Source: an uncultured Gammaproteobacteria bacterium (lineage in GTDB: Bacteria; Pseudomonadota; Gammaproteobacteria; Nitrosococcales; Methylophagaceae). Taken from it: 64,000 nt of DNA. Of the stretch, positions 22,448 to 35,406 are shown piece after piece. Both the position numbers and the translations under genes were made by a program. The notes beneath the pieces were generated by a model. It saw only the letters and a list, made by a program, of their open reading frames with translations. It was not told the DNA's origin and did no database searches. How positions within the stretch are numbered: the stretch's first letter is position 1; every line of letters begins with the position of its first letter. The DNA is taken from contig CAJQOM010000035.1 in NCBI GenBank assembly GCA_905479985.1, positions 1 to 64,000 of the forward strand. Reading direction: 5' to 3'.

Positions 22448-23590
22448 TTATTTTTCTTGATTATCACGTGCCAATTTAGCGCTGGCATCAAACCATTTCT
22501 GTTTAACGCTGCGTTTTCTGGCTAAGGCTATATTGGCCTCATACCATTTTTTCTTTACGTCGGCATGTGAATCGACCGTGGTATTAGCTTCATACCATGG
22601 CTTATTACTCTTTGCTGCTCGCGTTGCAGCCAAATTGGCCTCATACCATTTCTTCTTCACATCGGCATGTGGATCTGCTGTTAAATTGGCTTCATACCAT
22701 GGCACAGCATCGTCATTACCTGCTGATGCTTGATTGGCTTCGTACCACTTCTCCCGTGTTGCTCTCACATTTGATAGCGCAACTGCCAAATTGGCTTCAT
22801 ACCATTTTTTCTTGGTATCAACATGCTGTTGCATATTGGCTTCATACCAAGGTGTTTCAACTTCTACTGCCGGCAGTGAAGCTGCTTCATACCACTTGTT
22901 TTGGTTCGCTCGAGCAGATCGAGTATTGGCTTCATACCATTTATTATTAATTTGTTTTTCTTTCGCTAATGCCAGATTAGCTTCATACCACTTTTTCTTC
23001 ACATCGGCATGTGGGTCAACAACCATATTGGCTTCATACCAAGGTTTACTTTTTCTGGCATGACGGGCTGCTTCCAAGTTAGCCTCAAACCACCGCTGTT
23101 TGGTATCACTGACTTTTTCATCATTGAACTCATACCAATGCTTTTCTGTTTTAGTATTATCTAGATTAGCCTCATACCACTTTTCTTGGCTTTCTCGTGC
23201 CGCTTCTAAGTTAGCTTGATACCATTTTTTCTTGATATCAGCATGCGCGCCAGCCTGCGTATTGGCTTCATACCACGGTGTTGACGCTGTGGCGGCTTGC
23301 TGTTGATTAGCCTCATACCACTTTTGTCTTGTCGCTTTAACAGAGGTGACCGCCGCTTTTAAGTTGGCTTCGTACCACTTTTTCTTAGTATCTAAATGTT
23401 TACTCATATTTGCTTCATACCAAGGTGCTCCTGTCGCCTTTGTTGGTACGCTATTCGCTTCATACCATGGCGTCACTGTTATTTCAGAAGGTGCGGCTCG
23501 ATTAGCCTGATACCATTTTTTAGCTTTTTTTGGTTCTTTCCGTTGCTGATTACCGGCCCATTTTGTGTTGATATCTATCGTTGTACTCAT
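22448..23590 (-). CDS. WYEAN-repeat protein, unknown family
   Basis: I do not recognise this protein. It is 380 residues with no signal peptide, no membrane segment and no cysteine. From W26 to W366 there are 22 copies of a motif (K/P)-W-(Y/F)-(E/Q/D)-A-(N/S), most exactly W-Y-E-A-N, plus a degenerate KWAGN at residues 10-14. W-to-W distances are mostly 15 or 17 (range 14-19). Copies after KK tend to be followed by L and an Ala-rich, helix-like stretch; copies after P follow polar linkers, often containing HADVKKK. Tryptophan makes up about 6% of residues. Codons vary synonymously between copies (GCC/GCT, GAA/GAG, TAT/TAC, AAT/AAC), so the protein sequence is conserved, not merely the DNA. 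The start has AGGAGG at ideal spacing and a strong terminator follows. A cytoplasmic ligand- or RNA-binding scaffold or a multi-core peptide precursor are both possible; no modification enzyme is adjacent. Confidence 0.9.
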   Translation of the reverse strand: MSTTIDINTKWAGNQQRKEPKKAKKWYQANRAAPSEITVTPWYEANSVPTKATGAPWYEANMSKHLDTKKKWYEANLKAAVTSVKATRQKWYEANQQQAATASTPWYEANTQAGAHADIKKKWYQANLEAARESQEKWYEANLDNTKTEKHWYEFNDEKVSDTKQRWFEANLEAARHARKSKPWYEANMVVDPHADVKKKWYEANLALAKEKQINNKWYEANTRSARANQNKWYEAASLPAVEVETPWYEANMQQHVDTKKKWYEANLAVALSNVRATREKWYEANQASAGNDDAVPWYEANLTADPHADVKKKWYEANLAATRAAKSNKPWYEANTTVDSHADVKKKWYEANIALARKRSVKQKWFDASAKLARDNQEK

Positions 23591-23643
23591 CGTATAATCC
23601 TCCTGAAATAGATTATTACCCCAAGTTGATAGTACCTAAACAT

Positions 23644-23667
23644 CACATAAACAACAACTTTTATGTG
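23644..23667. promoter_or_regulatory. inverted repeat upstream of the WYEAN-repeat gene
   Basis: CACATAAA and TTTATGTG form a perfect 8-bp inverted repeat with an 8-nt spacer, in the 101-bp gap between the small exported-protein gene and the repeat-protein gene. There is no T-tract on the minus strand, so an operator or a leader RNA hairpin is more likely than a terminator. Confidence 0.5.
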
Positions 23668-23691: not shown

Positions 23692-24111
23692 CTATTCAAA
23701 GCATTGTTTCTCTGCTTTTATCTGTTGTAACAAGGCGATACGCTCTTCAACTAAGAGCATTCTACGTTGCTCTTTTTCCTCTACTGTTGCTGAGTACCCT
23801 AAGTACGCCACACCTGCTAAACCTTGGACGACAGGGATAAAGTCCAATGTCACCATTGCTGCTGCCACTTTATTAGCATCATCTTCATAAAAAGGCGCTT
23901 TGTAGGTGTAGCGATAAGGTTGCATGTTTCTGATTGTATTGTCTAAACCGACACAACTCAATTGCTCAACTTGTTCATTACGTTCTATCACGGGTGGTTC
24001 AAAATAAATCGGCTCTAGTGGCACACCCGGTAATGTTAATGCTTGAGATGCTGACCCTAACCCTTGTAATACGGTTAGGCTGACTGCCATTATTATTGGT
24101 TTTAATCGCAT
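23692..24111 (-). CDS. small exported protein of unknown function
   Basis: I do not recognise the family. The 139-residue precursor starts MRLKPIIMAVSLTVLQ and has a typical signal peptide with likely cleavage after SASQA. The mature part has a Pro-rich start (LPGVPLEPIYFEPP), two cysteines (LSCVGLD and the C-terminal KQCFE) that could form a disulfide, a hydrophobic small-residue segment (VVQGLAGVAYLGYS) that could be a membrane contact, and a charged C-terminal helix. It is 101 bp upstream of the WYEAN-repeat gene on the same strand and may be co-transcribed with it. Confidence 0.75.
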   Translation of the reverse strand: MRLKPIIMAVSLTVLQGLGSASQALTLPGVPLEPIYFEPPVIERNEQVEQLSCVGLDNTIRNMQPYRYTYKAPFYEDDANKVAAAMVTLDFIPVVQGLAGVAYLGYSATVEEKEQRRMLLVEERIALLQQIKAEKQCFE

Positions 24112-28829: not shown

Positions 28830-28905
28830 GTGAGTGTAGCTCAGTTGGTAGAGCCCCGGATTGTGATTCCGGTGGTCGTGGGTTCGAGCCCCATCACTCA
28901 CCCCA
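28830..28905 (+). tRNA. tRNA-His (GTG)
   Basis: Acceptor strands GTGAGTG (28830-28836) and CACTCAC (28895-28901) pair fully. The anticodon GTG is at 28863-28865 in a TTGTGAT loop, the T-loop is GGTTCGAGCC, and CCA is encoded at 28903-28905. A G at 28829 and C at 28902 provide the G-1:C73 pair specific to tRNA-His. The 3' half (from 28859) is the attachment site of the adjoining integrated element, which preserves the tRNA sequence. Confidence 0.97.
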
Positions 28906-28907
28906 TT
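28859..28907 (+). repeat. attL: 3' half of tRNA-His
   Basis: 49 bp identical to 36298-36346. It begins in the anticodon stem of tRNA-His and ends 2 bp past the encoded CCA. The flanks differ on both sides, defining the core. Confidence 0.95.
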
Positions 28908-29029
28908 TTACTTTACCTAAAAGTAACCTCGGAACAAAGACTTACAAATCTCAAGTTAGTTGAAATCGACTTACCGTCTTTATCAATTTACTGCACAGGT
29001 GCAAGCCGAGTGCAAAACTGGAGAATAGT

Positions 29030-30265
29030 ATGCCTTATTCAATCCTCAAAGCACCCTCAAATAAATTCAAAATACAATTCCGTTCGCGCCATATTCAAGG
29101 CTCTATTAACAGAACTTTCCCCACTTATGATGAAGCTGTAAACCTTGGTAACGAATTAGATGAAAGTTTAGAAAAACTAATCCTTGGTGAGAAAGCAATC
29201 CCTGCTTACCCTCCTCAAACACTCATAGATAGCGTACACCCCTTACTCACTTCACATATATTACATAGACCCTACTTCAACGACCTTGGCATTGATAGTA
29301 ACGGCAATCAATTAACACTATCCCACCTTATTGATAATTACCTTTTGTGGCATAACAGTCAGCCAGATAAAACTGATTATGGCGTAGCGCCAAGGCTAAG
29401 GTGGTGGCGTGAGAATTACGGGTATATAGCTATAGAGTCATTTACCGCTATTGAGGTATCGGAAGGTATTGAAAAGATAATATCGGGTAAAGGTATTTCA
29501 GATAAAAAGCCTCGAACACCTCAAACTAGCAATAGATACAAAGCCAATCTATCAAGCGTATTCACCTATGCAATTAAACCCAAAAGAGTACACATTAAAG
29601 GCTCTCACACGCCCAAGGCAAGGTTAATATCGAACCCTTGCAGATTGGTGCAGGGTGAGCCTGAAGGCACTCCACGTAGGCGCAGCCTCACTGTAAGTGA
29701 GCAAGAACGATTGATTGAAGCTAGCAAACAATCAGAATGGAAGCCTATGTATGCCTTAGTCTTAATGGCATTAACCTGTGGTGCACGCAAGGGTGAATTA
29801 ATGGGACTAAGATGGAAAGATATAGACTGGTCAAACAATACTGTTTTTGTATTACGCACTAAAAATGGTGACTCTAAAGAAATGTCTATCGTACCCAAAC
29901 TAAAAGATTACCTGTTTAGACTATGGGGTTCGGTGAAATTATCTACTAACGATATTAACGTAAAAGAGCATTTGATATTTCGAGGAATAGTATCACCATA
30001 TAGGTCATTTACAATGCACAAGCAATGGATTAAAACTCTTGAACGTGCAGAAATAGAACCTTTAGATGACAAGTATGGTGAACCCATCGTATTTCACTCT
30101 TTACGTCACACCTTTTGCACAACCCTGCATAGAAATGGAGAGGACTTAAAGACGATACAATCACTAGCAGGTCACCGTGATATATCAACCACCTTGCGCT
30201 ATACCCATGATGATAAAGACACTAAGGAAAAGGCAATTCACAATAGTTTTGCTAACTATGGTTGA
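29030..30265 (+). CDS. tyrosine recombinase/integrase
   Basis: Site-specific integrase of 411 residues. Catalytic residues are visible: R253 (CGARKGEL), H356 and R359 (FHSLRHTF), H382 (LAGHRD) and nucleophile Y391 (TTLRYTH). The N-terminal part carries an arm-binding-like and core-binding region. GGAG sits 6 nt before the ATG. Its position 124 bp from tRNA-His and the flanking direct repeats identify it as the enzyme that inserted this element. The CDS is full length, so the element may still be excisable. Confidence 0.95.
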   Translation: MPYSILKAPSNKFKIQFRSRHIQGSINRTFPTYDEAVNLGNELDESLEKLILGEKAIPAYPPQTLIDSVHPLLTSHILHRPYFNDLGIDSNGNQLTLSHLIDNYLLWHNSQPDKTDYGVAPRLRWWRENYGYIAIESFTAIEVSEGIEKIISGKGISDKKPRTPQTSNRYKANLSSVFTYAIKPKRVHIKGSHTPKARLISNPCRLVQGEPEGTPRRRSLTVSEQERLIEASKQSEWKPMYALVLMALTCGARKGELMGLRWKDIDWSNNTVFVLRTKNGDSKEMSIVPKLKDYLFRLWGSVKLSTNDINVKEHLIFRGIVSPYRSFTMHKQWIKTLERAEIEPLDDKYGEPIVFHSLRHTFCTTLHRNGEDLKTIQSLAGHRDISTTLRYTHDDKDTKEKAIHNSFANYG

Positions 30266-30354
30266 TTTAAATCAACTGACGTAATTTATTAGCAGTAAGG
30301 ATTGGCTAGTAAATCAGGTAAACTGACTCTCGATTTAATTGTTTAGGATAACTT

Positions 30355-31926
30355 ATGGCTGACACCATTAAACTTGTTGAGCAACCTGTTGGTTCTGGGA
30401 AAACCTTTCATGTAATAAGGAAAATTGTAGAGGCTGGTGGGCTTATTATCTATTGTGCTCCCACAAAGATTTTAGCCAGACAGGTGAAGAAGGATATTCA
30501 GAAAGTTATTTCATCTAATGAGTTTGTTCACCGAAAAAATACGCCTTTATATATTGTCACAAGTGAAGATAAAGATTACAGCACTACCGTACAGGAAGCT
30601 CTCACAGAGCTAATACTTGATGCTGATAATAGTGAAGCAATTATTGTTTGTACTCTTGCGGGTATCCAAACGGTTAGTGGGAGTGTTATTTCAAAAGCAA
30701 CGAATGAAATAGGTAAAGATGTAACACTAATTCTTGATGAACTCCCTAATTTGTTCTCAACGTATCAGCACTCATTTTCAGGCGAGAATGTCAAAGTGCT
30801 AGATGGGTTGGTAACAGTTGAAGGTGATATAGCTAGAGTTAACGACAGTGCAACATATGAGCACGAATTACATGACAAGTCATTTACCTCTGAACTTCAA
30901 AAACTTTTAGAGCTTATCCCAAGTGGGAATGTTAGGTTCCAGAAAAACAAGTCTAATGGCTGGACAGTTTTTGGCTACGAATTAAAAGAAAACCTCAGTA
31001 CCATAATTAAACTGTCACAGACAATATACTTACTTGCAGCAACGGTAAAAGGTACTCTTGATTATGTTGTTTTAAATGATGTTTGGGGTTTCAATCTTGA
31101 AAACTGTGAAACAGTAAACTCCCAAGTTATTAAAAATAAGATAAAAGAGAAGGAAGGAAACATAAGGGTGTACCCATTACTTGATGAGAGTTTTTCAAGA
31201 GGAAAAGCTAATCAAGGTGACTACTCATCATCAATGCCAAATGAGGATTCGTGCTTAGTTAAAATGCTTGATAATGCAATATCTTTTATTGAAGATTCTC
31301 CTGCTTTAATTGTCTCCAATGAGTGGGCTAATAGGTTTGTCGCTCCTCGCACTAAAGGTAAAAATAATATTGAGCTGGCATCTCCAAATGTCAAAGGAAT
31401 GAATAATCATCAAGACAAGCATATTTGTTGCGCGATATATACTGCCAAACCAAATGGCTTTACAACAAGGTCACTCAACTTACTGGCAGAGCAATATAAT
31501 CTTACTAATCTTGTTGGTGCCTTCGTATTACAGTCTGAATTAGACATGATTGTTCAAATGTGTGGACGAACTAGTATACGTAACAGAGAATCAAATGAAA
31601 CATGTCACTTCCTAGTATCTGATAAGAAACAAGCTGAGCATATTCTCGAAACCTATGTTAGTGATAAACAGCTTTATGGCTCTTTAATGGACGAGTCATT
31701 AATGGTTAATTGGAGCGATTTTTCAGATACCAATACGGGAAGACCAAGGTCATATGAACGAGAAGAAACGGCACAAGAGATGGCTCAGTATATGGCGTAT
31801 CACGATTACATAGGCGAACCAATAAAGCAAAAAGATTTAGCTGAAATGTATGGTTTCACACCTTCCGGGGTAAGCAAACTCCTAAAAGATGCAGGCTATA
31901 AAAAGCCAAGTAAAAATGATTCATAA
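30355..31926 (+). CDS. helicase-like ATPase with C-terminal helix-turn-helix
   Basis: Predicted DEAD-like superfamily 2 NTPase of 523 residues. It has Walker A PVGSGKTFHV (about 11-20), a motif Ia-like segment IIYCAPTKILARQV, Walker B LILDELPN (about 125-132) and a motif VI-like QMCGRTSIRN. The C-terminus (about 488-512, KDLAEMYGFTPSGVSKLLKDAG) looks like a helix-turn-helix. It follows the integrase by 90 bp. Such proteins in small islands may replicate the element, but a defence role is also possible; the sequence alone does not tell. Confidence 0.75.
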   Translation: MADTIKLVEQPVGSGKTFHVIRKIVEAGGLIIYCAPTKILARQVKKDIQKVISSNEFVHRKNTPLYIVTSEDKDYSTTVQEALTELILDADNSEAIIVCTLAGIQTVSGSVISKATNEIGKDVTLILDELPNLFSTYQHSFSGENVKVLDGLVTVEGDIARVNDSATYEHELHDKSFTSELQKLLELIPSGNVRFQKNKSNGWTVFGYELKENLSTIIKLSQTIYLLAATVKGTLDYVVLNDVWGFNLENCETVNSQVIKNKIKEKEGNIRVYPLLDESFSRGKANQGDYSSSMPNEDSCLVKMLDNAISFIEDSPALIVSNEWANRFVAPRTKGKNNIELASPNVKGMNNHQDKHICCAIYTAKPNGFTTRSLNLLAEQYNLTNLVGAFVLQSELDMIVQMCGRTSIRNRESNETCHFLVSDKKQAEHILETYVSDKQLYGSLMDESLMVNWSDFSDTNTGRPRSYEREETAQEMAQYMAYHDYIGEPIKQKDLAEMYGFTPSGVSKLLKDAGYKKPSKNDS

Positions 31927-31976
31927 AGTTTCCATTAGTCCTAAGAAGTCTTTAGGCGTTTTGGAAAGTTTTTAGG

Positions 31977-32171
31977 ATGAGATTAAAGAAGACGCTACCA
32001 CTAATAAATAGTCTTATTAGTCAGGACGTCCTCTTTGGCAGTTATAGAACTAATAACCCGAAAGGAACTGCTCCTAAACTTATTATTTCATCTAAATATG
32101 CTGATCCAAGGAGAACTTTAGAAAAAAAACTAGGTGAAAAAGTTACATCTTTTGATATTGTTACTCTATAA
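31977..32171 (+). CDS. small hypothetical protein
   Basis: A 64-residue basic ORF starting MRLKKTLPLINSLISQD, 50 bp after the helicase-like gene. GGAAAG lies 9 nt before the ATG. No domain is recognised. Its position in line with the helicase gene is the main support. Confidence 0.4.
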   Translation: MRLKKTLPLINSLISQDVLFGSYRTNNPKGTAPKLIISSKYADPRRTLEKKLGEKVTSFDIVTL

Positions 32172-32475
32172 ATCCAGTATTGATATGAGGGTATGCTTAA
32201 CTAGGTACACATTAGTGGGTTTTTGCTATATTTATTAACCTCTAATATGTTGTAGATACTAATATATCTCGTAAAGTAAGTGACCTTTTTTAATTGACTC
32301 TCGCATACCTAACTAACAGGTAACCAAAGGAAAACCATAGCATCAAAAACTCAAACTAAACCCCAGAATAGAAGCACAGGTTACAGTCCCTAAGTCTTTC
32401 GGCTTCATACCCTAATACACCTCAAATGCCACATTCTGTTTAACACAACCCTGCTATGCCGACAAACTAACCACA
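32172..32475. other. AT-rich gap inside the element, no gene seen
   Basis: About 300 bp between two convergent transcription units of the element. It is AT-rich with repeated CTAATAT words near 32240-32270, but I see no ORF, clear hairpin terminator or iteron array. It could hold a replication or transfer origin; nothing proves it. Confidence 0.4.
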
Positions 32476-32982
32476 TCAAAAATTGGCTTTTATGTCTTCC
32501 CATTTCACTATATCGTATTTTGCTGTAATGTTTTCATAAACGGACTCGGCATTGTACGCATGCGGGTGATTCTCAGGCTTTTCTTTAAAGCAAAGAATAA
32601 TGTTAGTTGATGAGGGAGTCGTTATATTATATGTCTGTCCTCCGGTAATACGTGTAGTTGCATTAAAGCTGCCACTGTCGTAAACATGACCCCTCGTATG
32701 GGCTTCAACCGGCATTCTATGTGTATTATTCTTAACCTCGTTAGCCTCTTCTAAGATTACGAAGTATTTGTAGTTATTACCCAATGCAAGCTCCGCACTG
32801 CGTAATAGTGCATAATCCCGAGCCCTTTGAGGATTGGTATACCCGTTGCCTTCAAAGCCAACTTTAAACATGTTTTCGGCAATCTGAAGGTCTGAATAAC
32901 CTCCCGTCAAGCCCTTACTTTGATATGCTGTAGCACACCCAGCAAGCATCAAAACTAATAAGGCTGAAGTTAACAATTTCAT
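32476..32982 (-). CDS. CC0125/CC1285-type lipoprotein
   Basis: The 168-residue precursor has a lipobox (LLVLMLAGC, Cys16). The mature region has the conserved GGYSDLQIAENMFKVGFEGN and RARDYALLRSAELAL patterns of the CC0125/CC1285 lipoproteins, whose function is unknown. It is on the minus strand, opposite its neighbours in the element. Confidence 0.75.
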   Translation of the reverse strand: MKLLTSALLVLMLAGCATAYQSKGLTGGYSDLQIAENMFKVGFEGNGYTNPQRARDYALLRSAELALGNNYKYFVILEEANEVKNNTHRMPVEAHTRGHVYDSGSFNATTRITGGQTYNITTPSSTNIILCFKEKPENHPHAYNAESVYENITAKYDIVKWEDIKANF

Positions 32983-33126
32983 TTAAAGCTCCATGCGAAA
33001 ATATAAGTCTCAAATAAACATAACAAACCACAAAACACTTGTCACCCACTAAACCACCAACCCATATTTGGCTCAAGTGATTATTTTGTTATTATCGGGC
33101 TATCAGTTTAGAGAAGAGGAAATCCC

Positions 33127-33789
33127 GTGAAAAATATTATCGTCGCTACATTACTACTTCTTCTTAGTACAAATGCTTTCGCTTGTTATGATGAAAGCCT
33201 GAGTGGTAAGGATAGTTTTGATAACTGCTTGGTTGAAGCTGAACAAGGGGATGCATTTGCTCAACTCAGCCTTGGGTTTATGTATAACAATGGGCAAGGC
33301 GTAGCCCAAGACTACAAAGAAGCTGTGAAGTGGTACACAAAAGCTGCTGAGCAAGGAGTTGCAACAGCTCAATCGAGCCTTGGGATTATGTATAACAATG
33401 GTCAAGGCGTAGCCCAAGACTACAAAGAGGCTGTAAAGTGGTATACAAAAGCTGCTGAGCAAGGAGATGAACTAGCTCAATACAACCTTGCGCTTATGTA
33501 TGACAATGGCAAAGGCGTAGCCCAAGACTATAAAGAAGCTATGAAGTGGTATACAAAAGCTGCTGAACAAGGACATACAGATGCTCAATACAATCTTGGG
33601 GTTATGTATTACAAAGGTGAAGGTGTAGTGCAAGACTACAAAAGTGCACACATGTGGTTCAACATAGCAGCTGCAAATGGGGGTTCAAAAGCAGTCGAAC
33701 CCAGAGACCTCTTAGCGAAAGAAATAACACCTTCCCAAATAGAAAAAGCACAGGATATGGCTCGTGAGTGGATGGCTGAGCATCAATAG
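33127..33789 (+). CDS. secreted Sel1-repeat (TPR-like) protein
   Basis: The 220-residue product has a signal peptide (MKNIIVATLLLLLSTNAFA) followed by four to five Sel1-like repeats of 36 residues, three of them containing GVAQDYKEA(V/M)KWYTKAA. The repeats are also close at DNA level (108-bp period, about 33265-33590), pointing to recent expansion or ongoing gene conversion. Sel1 arrays mediate protein contacts, often in the periplasm. The next gene, a thermonuclease, starts inside this one (26-bp overlap). Confidence 0.9.
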   Translation: MKNIIVATLLLLLSTNAFACYDESLSGKDSFDNCLVEAEQGDAFAQLSLGFMYNNGQGVAQDYKEAVKWYTKAAEQGVATAQSSLGIMYNNGQGVAQDYKEAVKWYTKAAEQGDELAQYNLALMYDNGKGVAQDYKEAMKWYTKAAEQGHTDAQYNLGVMYYKGEGVVQDYKSAHMWFNIAAANGGSKAVEPRDLLAKEITPSQIEKAQDMAREWMAEHQ

Positions 33790-34258
33790 ATTACTTTTAC
33801 CCTTACTTTTACCCTTACTTTTACTCTTTACCCTATCAGCCCAAGCAGAAACATTAGAAGGTAAGGTAGTTAAGATAGCTGATGGTGATACTCTTACCCT
33901 GCTTACTTCTGCAAACAAACAAATTAAGATTAGATTAGCTGGTATTGATACACCTGAAAAGAAACAACCTTTTGGTAAGAGAGCTAAACAAGCTCTGGCT
34001 AATTTAGCTTTTCAGAAACAAGCCTTGGTAGAAGTAGAAACCAAAGACAGGTACGGAAGAACAGTAGGCACTGTATTTGTAGGCAGTCAAAACCTAAATG
34101 CTGAATTAGTTAGACAAGGTATGGCATGGGTTTACAGGGAATACACTAGCGATAAAAGGCTTTATGCTCTGGAATCAGAAGCGAAACAATCTAAACGTGG
34201 ACTTTGGTTACAAGAGAATCCTATATCACCTTGGGAATGGCGTAGAGGCAGACGTTAA
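33764..34258 (+). CDS. secreted thermonuclease (staphylococcal nuclease family)
   Basis: Ca-dependent nuclease of 164 residues, exported. Catalytic residues align with the family: R57, D62 and E65 in IRLAGIDTPE, and R99 in RYGRTVG. The signal peptide is extremely leucine-rich because its core is encoded by three 12-bp tandem copies (33791-33826) reading L-L-L-P. The start is GTG inside the Sel1 gene, with AGGA 8 nt upstream. It could act on extracellular or incoming DNA. Confidence 0.92.
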   Translation: MSGWLSINRLLLPLLLPLLLLFTLSAQAETLEGKVVKIADGDTLTLLTSANKQIKIRLAGIDTPEKKQPFGKRAKQALANLAFQKQALVEVETKDRYGRTVGTVFVGSQNLNAELVRQGMAWVYREYTSDKRLYALESEAKQSKRGLWLQENPISPWEWRRGRR

Positions 34259-34426
34259 CCAAGGCAAATCCCAATATTTAGGCTGGCAAAACAACCCTAT
34301 CTTAGGCATAATGTTAGCGTATAAGGTGCGGGGTTTGAACGCCTTAGAGGGGCTTACAGGAGCCATAAAGGTTAGCCATACCCTTGCAACCAATCACCAT
34401 GAAAGGCAAGTGCTATAGTGTTATAT

Positions 34427-34873
34427 CTAATCCACCTGTTGGGCTGTCAAAAATAAAGACTTACCTAATGCTGTAAAGAAGTCTTGGTAAGGCTTGGGAT
34501 CTTCTATTGCTTCTAGATTATATTGTGCATTTGCTCTGACCACCATCTGCTTATCTCCTCTCGGACGAACACTTACAGTCATTTTCAGCTGGTACATCTT
34601 GGCTCCAGATTTACCAAACTTCGTGCCTGACACCGAGCCTAACAACAAGTCTGCATTATCAACGATAAAATCCAAATCTTGTAGAGTGCTAATTGCTGAC
34701 CTCATAACCTTGTTTTTATCGCTAGACTCAAATACTCGAGTTTGCATGCTTCTGAGCTGAACTTGACTTTCTGTAGCTGCTAAAACCTGCTTTTTTGGGT
34801 TCAACTGGCAGCCTGATATTGTTATCAGTGGTACTACGGCAGCAGCGATAAGAAGGACTCTTCTGATTTTCAT
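34427..34873 (-). CDS. lipoprotein, paralogous to upstream neighbour
   Basis: The 148-residue precursor has a lipobox (ITISGC, Cys22). The mature protein resembles the product of 34870-35406: both have (M/T)Q(T/S)R, a STLQDLDF or AVLQDLGF segment and a C-terminal FFxxLxKSxFL motif. It overlaps that gene by 4 bp (ATGA). The family is unnamed to me; such paired lipoproteins occur on mobile regions of proteobacteria. Function unknown. Confidence 0.75.
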   Translation of the reverse strand: MKIRRVLLIAAAVVPLITISGCQLNPKKQVLAATESQVQLRSMQTRVFESSDKNKVMRSAISTLQDLDFIVDNADLLLGSVSGTKFGKSGAKMYQLKMTVSVRPRGDKQMVVRANAQYNLEAIEDPKPYQDFFTALGKSLFLTAQQVD

Positions 34874-35406
34874 ATATTGTTTGCCTCAAGAAATACAGAC
34901 TTGGAAAGTTTGCTAAAGAACTCCTGATAAATTTCAGGGTCGTCAACAGTTTCAACCCTTGATACTTGGTCACGCGTGTTCCAGACCTTTCTCTGAAACT
35001 TTACCCTAACATGAGCTCTTTTCTCATCTAAAGACGGGCTGACAATCATGGCAACCCTTATCTTTTGATTCCTATCAGTTGGTAGAGCGACACCAGTAAG
35101 CATGGCATAGACAATTGCGCCAGCAATCTGCCCTGCATTGGTCGCATCTCTATCCTTGCTTGCCACCAAAAAGCCAAGTTTTGTTTCGCTCTTGTCCAGT
35201 GTAAAACCAAGGTCTTGTAGGACTGCAGCTGATGCAGCAATGATTTGCTCCTCATCAGTCGTGTCATAGTATCTCGATTGTGTTTGACGCTCCTCAATTG
35301 TGTCAGGCGTTAGAATTAAAGCGTCCTTGGGTATCCCTCCACAGCCAGATAGCGTAAGCAAGAAAAGGATAATAGCTGAGCTTAGCAGGTATTTACTCGG
35401 TTTCAT
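34870..35406 (-). CDS. lipoprotein, unknown function
   Basis: The 178-residue precursor has a lipobox (LLTLSGC, Cys22). It shares the LQDLGF and FFSKLSKSVFLEA segments with the shorter downstream protein and has an extra small-residue hydrophobic stretch (IAGAIVYAMLTGVALP). Middle gene of a three-lipoprotein operon 35865 to 34427. Confidence 0.75.
   Translation of the reverse strand: MKPSKYLLSSAIILFLLTLSGCGGIPKDALILTPDTIEERQTQSRYYDTTDEEQIIAASAAVLQDLGFTLDKSETKLGFLVASKDRDATNAGQIAGAIVYAMLTGVALPTDRNQKIRVAMIVSPSLDEKRAHVRVKFQRKVWNTRDQVSRVETVDDPEIYQEFFSKLSKSVFLEANNI

Follow-up and report, generated by a model that had tools for sequence, protein, structure and literature searches.

What is the use of a protein that consists of little else than one short tryptophan-centered unit, repeated over and over? 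The question is raised by a minus-strand gene (Table 1) in a 64,000-nucleotide stretch (referred to here, as a whole, as the window) of a Methylophagaceae contig. Its product will be called WYEAN, after its most frequent motif. The first-pass annotation of this DNA offered two readings, a folded helical solenoid that presents a ladder of Trp-Tyr pairs to a ligand and a precursor from which several modified peptides are cut. Neither has come through unaltered.

Architecture of the repeat protein

Almost the entire reading frame is repeat; the + strand over 22448-23590 is closed by many stops and holds no open frame. The 23 tryptophans (23/380 = 6.05%) comprise W11 and then 22 from W26 to W366. 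The strict motif (K/P)W(Y/F)(E/Q/D)A(N/S) occurs 19 times, and three degenerate sites (HWYEFN, RWFEAN and KWYEAA) bring the total to 22; 16 copies read WYEAN exactly. A slightly looser motif finds 20 copies, against at most one per shuffle in 2,000 shuffles of the protein. Successive tryptophans lie 15 (n=9), 17 (n=8), 16 (n=2), 19 (n=2) or 14 (n=1) residues apart, that is, 15 or 17 in 17 of the 22 intervals. There is no cysteine, and no export signal is apparent on inspection by eye. The initial inventory (22 copies between W26 and W366, spacings mostly of 15 or 17, about 6% Trp and no Cys) is thus borne out by recounting.

No tandem array in the gene reaches a score of 30: the units have diverged as DNA, and their repetition is therefore maintained at the level of the protein. 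A larger duplication is superimposed on the small one. Self-BLAST of the protein returns no match that would reveal it, but half-against-half alignment brings out two super-repeats (Table 1), which are 53-82% identical to one another in eight other members of the family. Across the family the number of Trp units ranges from 12 to 27; the logo built on 697 tryptophans reads K-W-Y-E-A-N-L-x-x-A-R, its Trp, Tyr and Asn near-invariant, and the pI of most members is ~9.3-9.8.

Table 1. Features of the WYEAN locus (window coordinates)
Feature	Coordinates	Strand	Remarks
WYEAN repeat protein	22448..23590	-	380 aa, ~22 Trp-centered units; ATG at 23590, stop at 22448
N-terminal super-repeat, residues 43-232	22895..23464	-	91/146 aligned residues identical to C-terminal half
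C-terminal super-repeat, residues 234-380	22451..22891	-	aligned half-against-half with N-terminal half
Conserved promoter-like pair, TTGTTG (23652-23657) and GTACTATCAA (23626-23635)	23626..23657	-	upstream of the WYEAN ATG
sec139	23692..24111	-	139 aa, apparently exported, two invariant Cys

Distribution, constraint and gene order

Within Methylophagaceae the gene is nearly universal, with 53 of 57 genomes (and 34 of the 36 good ones) carrying it; as far as the scans reach, it is confined to that family. A scan over 84,980 species genomes found thirty loci, titled Methylophaga, Piscirickettsiaceae or unclassified Gammaproteobacteria; a sample of 369 Gammaproteobacteria gave matches in none but the four that belong to the family; tblastn found nothing in plasmids or phages. 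The one further match among 399 Pseudomonadota (L058, in G417) is a pentapeptide-repeat protein, and was rejected as a chance resemblance. Four family genomes are without the gene: two small ones (G022, 1.2 Mb, and G029, 1.1 Mb; in the latter carbonic anhydrase directly follows COQ7), an incomplete one (G797), and a member of another genus (G031), whose MBL-carbonic anhydrase pair sits in a different context. Two departures from the standard form deserve mention. The shortest WYEAN (L028:8001-8609; 202 aa, 12 Trp) comes from a 1.5-Mb genome, and from that locus sec139, PilZ and CheV are missing as well. In Methylophaga muralis Bur 1 a frame break at L021:8932-8951 leaves two overlapping frames that hold the two parts of the protein; it may be an assembly error or a real frameshift.

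Where the gene is kept, selection against amino acid change is strong: dN/dS is 0.01-0.16 in 12 species pairs (the ratios are rough, several pairs being near synonymous saturation), and the units retain their order and identity throughout the family. These observations bear on the peptide-precursor reading. Repeated aromatic units do look like the cores of a Trp/Tyr-modified peptide, but whole length and unit order are conserved, neither a leader nor a cleavage motif is seen, no peptide-modifying or maturation enzyme is recognized in the conserved neighborhood (at the locus, the neighbors are housekeeping genes), and, as described below, repeats of the same kind form part of nucleases. A multi-core precursor is accordingly hard to credit, and WYEAN is more likely to be a nucleic acid-binding (or scaffold) protein.

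The gene order CheV - COQ7 - (PilZ) - sec139 - WYEAN - [MBL hydrolase] - carbonic anhydrase - (BamE) - Fur recurs in ~30 genomes; because the whole neighborhood is conserved, this is weak evidence of a functional link to any one neighbor. In many Methylophaga (L007, L015, L018, L036 and others) WYEAN is separated from carbonic anhydrase by the MBL-fold hydrolase, a weak GloB-type match, which the window's locus lacks. The small protein sec139 is confined to WYEAN-bearing genomes, one of which (G018) lacks it; its association with WYEAN is one of co-occurrence and position only. Its structure model is helical (pLDDT 79), and a fold search with it returned no match with E < 3. Farther along, window positions 28830-35400 are occupied by a putative element, probably integrated at tRNA-His, with genes for an integrase (29030), a DEAD-type helicase (30355), a Sel1-repeat protein (33127) and a staphylococcal-nuclease homologue (33764); within it, at 30000-33000, G+C falls to 0.36-0.38.

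A promoter-like pair is kept, as a single copy per locus, in nearly all of 31 WYEAN loci. Its -35/-10-like consensus (CTTGTGG, ~18 nt, TGTASTATC) lies ~37-50 nt upstream of the start codon. In the genome the pair matches no more often than its backwards-pattern control, and no regulon is apparent. Codon use (TAT 90%, AAT 81%; CAI rank 11/52) is not of the high-expression type, and the idea of a highly expressed structural protein was dropped.

Structure and known families

The AlphaFold2 model, computed with 27 homologues, contains helices only, the longest at residues 57-100, 195-236, 248-291 and 343-379, and is of low confidence (mean pLDDT 58.7, pTM 0.18). It suggests an extended chain with a propensity for helix and no confident fold. 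The solenoid reading thus divides: the helices are there in the model, the folded solenoid is not. Units of 15-17 residues would suit one helix apiece, like the helical units, similar in length, of the Sel1/TPR solenoids, and there is a weak Sel1-repeat similarity (E 0.04). AlphaFold2, on the other hand, usually recognizes solenoid folds, none is predicted here, and no TPR or Sel1 family in Pfam is matched. A solenoid offering a Trp-Tyr ladder to its ligand is an improbable alternative.

Might the helices lie on a membrane instead, in the manner of a perilipin or phasin, with Trp and Tyr at the lipid interface? Trp, Tyr and Lys are typical of that interface, and a HeliQuest-type score places the consensus units in the gray zone (D 0.9-1.34). 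The mean hydrophobic moment is low (0.24), however, no phasin is matched, and the fixed Asn and Ala would go unexplained, all of which makes a membrane-binding amphipathic-helix protein more doubtful still than a solenoid.

The statement that the motif belongs to no named family has held up: none of the families in Pfam or NCBIfam gives consistent matches (27 members were searched for Pfam domains), no solved structure in the PDB is matched, PHROGs yields only weak matches to families of unknown function, and no publication naming the protein was found. Matches to HMMs for HetL, nucleoside hydrolase, Vesi_VP2 and the like are weak, scattered and dependent on the member used, and were set aside. 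The pentapeptide repeat proteins (PF00805; HetL NF047416) share with a few WYEAN members some local ANLxxA letters and consequent weak matches; their repeat has a period of 5 and is a β structure, while that of WYEAN has a period of 15-17 (W-W 14-19), is predicted to be helical and shows no five-residue period. Identity with them was rejected as a chance match.

A similar repeat in phage nucleases

In 2.9 million viral contigs a single match beyond the family was confirmed: a phage GIY-YIG nuclease (L057), whose tail reads QKKWYEANKEKKKESHRKWCEANKDKIREY, with a W-W spacing of 15 residues, and whose 15-residue repeats include KKWYEANKEKKKESHRKWCEANKDK. (Tblastn with this tail alone finds nothing, probably because of low-complexity masking.) Searching from the tail uncovers more viral GIY-YIG and Zn-ribbon/HNH proteins whose tails show the same periodicity, along with hundreds of phage records, of which many are annotated as HNH endonuclease or endonuclease VII. 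Pfam has no family that covers this repeat (L057-L063, L071-L077, L079-L090), no solved structure matches it, and no paper was found that deals with it or describes its function. The possibility, allowed for at the outset, that WYEAN would match a characterized repeat family is thus half realized: the repeat does recur, in phage nucleases, but in a form that itself has neither a Pfam model nor a functional description that could be found.

How good is the resemblance? Twelve phage HNH/endonuclease VII loci were chosen solely by their similarity to other nucleases. In 7 of the 12 the WYEAN profile outscores every one of 100 shuffles, and in an eighth it outscores 98 of them; L085, also among the twelve, is a fragment that lacks the repeats. 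The best E-values, which assume 1,000 sequences, are 9e-8 (in Vibrio phage jenny 12G5) and 1e-5 (in Vibrio phage 1.246). In the other direction, a viral-repeat profile, which contained the tail first found with A1, beats all shuffles in 29 of 31 WYEAN proteins. Comparing two-unit profiles, WYEAN against phage, gives a probability of 94% (E 1.5e-7) and a score of 25.5, against a maximum of 15.2 in 100 column permutations that preserve period and column content; the phage units having been picked by an aromatic residue, Asn/His at +4 and a spacing of 15, this match is partly built in. The A1-A4 profile comparison gives a probability of only 57% (E 1e-4).

The cleanest test is the reverse scan of whole genomes with a 30-residue profile built solely from phage-nuclease repeats. 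Of 40 genomes, 14 match at E<=0.01, all of them of the window's genus, and all of the matches lie in WYEAN genes except those in one prophage HNH nuclease of G019; the 15 genomes outside Methylophagaceae give no match at this threshold, and neither does the window's own genome. At E<=0.001 nothing matches among 369 Gammaproteobacteria, which fits specificity and also shows that the sensitivity of the profile is limited. The prophage protein of G019 (L094:1039-1782, minus strand) has a Zn-ribbon / 15-residue-repeat / HNH layout and adjoins a terminase. A nuclease of this kind is a possible source of the WYEAN repeats.

What the two kinds of repeat have in common, then, in phage proteins that are HNH/endonuclease VII-like (AGN51421.1 of Vibrio phage jenny 12G5; YP_009203557.1 of Acinetobacter phage YMC11/12/R2315) or GIY-YIG (L057), is a tandem period of 15 with an aromatic residue at position 0 and Asn (in phage also His) at +4, Lys or Arg ahead of the aromatic, a small or aliphatic residue at +8 and Lys or Arg at +9, and profiles that match in both directions. 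The differences are equally definite. In WYEAN, Trp and Tyr are nearly fixed at 0 and +1, +5 is Leu rather than Lys, 17-residue steps stand beside those of 15, and there are 12-27 Trp units; the units are not strongly Lys-rich, their net charge per 15 residues being +0.63, about a third of the +1.92 (the ~+2 typical) of the phage units; there is no attached HNH, endonuclease VII or GIY-YIG domain and no Zn-ribbon; and the gene is vertically inherited, in a fixed place. A stand-alone, vertically inherited bacterial protein made wholly of nuclease-type repeats appears to be undescribed in the libraries searched. We infer common descent, possibly by early domestication of a phage nuclease tail in Methylophagaceae; helical repeats of 15 residues may also have arisen by convergence.

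What WYEAN may do

The reading tentatively preferred here, on the strength of the repeat's sequence relatives, is that WYEAN is a cytoplasmic, nucleic acid-binding array of ~22 nuclease-type helical repeats without a nuclease domain. Each unit (K-K-W-Y-E-A-N-L-x-x-A-R, mostly 15 or 17 residues) would be a short helix; runs of units would build longer helices, interrupted at P-W and D-P-H-A-D sites; the result would be a flexible, positively charged chain whose Trp/Tyr/Asn/Lys/Arg faces meet a nucleic-acid polymer repeatedly along its length, in an architectural or chaperone-like role. Nucleic acid was one of three ligands first proposed, with sugars and cofactors, and it is the one to which the relatives point, because the repeats keep company with nucleases, their phage counterparts sitting between or behind the catalytic parts. 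That the protein is basic, helical in its model, free of Cys and found in all but four of the family's 57 genomes is consistent with such an array. Conversely, the phage repeats could be helical spacers.

The main rival, itself unlikely, is a multivalent protein scaffold: helical "stickers" on a flexible chain that engage a client protein at many points and draw it into a condensate or lattice, the way EPYC1 and CsoS2 act on Rubisco. Those linkers, too, repeat short helical motifs along a mostly unfolded chain, and the near-invariant Trp, Tyr and Asn of the WYEAN motif, the chain's lack of a confident fold, its abundance of aromatic and basic residues and its modest net charge would all suit a scaffold; indeed the low charge per unit would fit a scaffold as well as a nucleic-acid binder that holds on more weakly, at many sites. 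Against it, the 15-17-residue spacing is much tighter than that of EPYC1 or CsoS2, with hardly any linker between units, codon usage gives no hint of very high expression, and the obvious clients are dispensable. Rubisco is absent from the window's own genome and seven other WYEAN carriers (G000, G003, G005, G011, G012, G016, G017 and G018, of which G000, G011, G012 and G018 are 99% complete and some others incomplete), and carbonic anhydrase is unmatched in two carriers (G012, 99% complete, and G017, 93%). Co-occurrence thus rules out both as obligatory partners, and with them a Rubisco linker and a carbonic-anhydrase scaffold. A flagellar or chemotaxis function was rejected likewise: G009, G012, G018 and G019 keep WYEAN with no flagellin match.

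If the nucleic acid-binding reading is pursued to its conclusion, a phage nuclease tail was domesticated early, lost its nuclease, and was expanded and duplicated into a lineage-specific nucleoid- or RNA-organizing protein with one Trp-Tyr-Asn contact face per unit. Taken as a whole this history is speculative and, in all its particulars, rather unlikely. The tie to nuclease repeats provides a first testable function for a protein that is near-universal in a family of marine methylotrophs, is strongly constrained, and previously had no family model; it also draws attention to a nuclease repeat, itself widespread, that still lacks one in Pfam. As a natural repeat array, WYEAN might also serve as a modular nucleic-acid binder.
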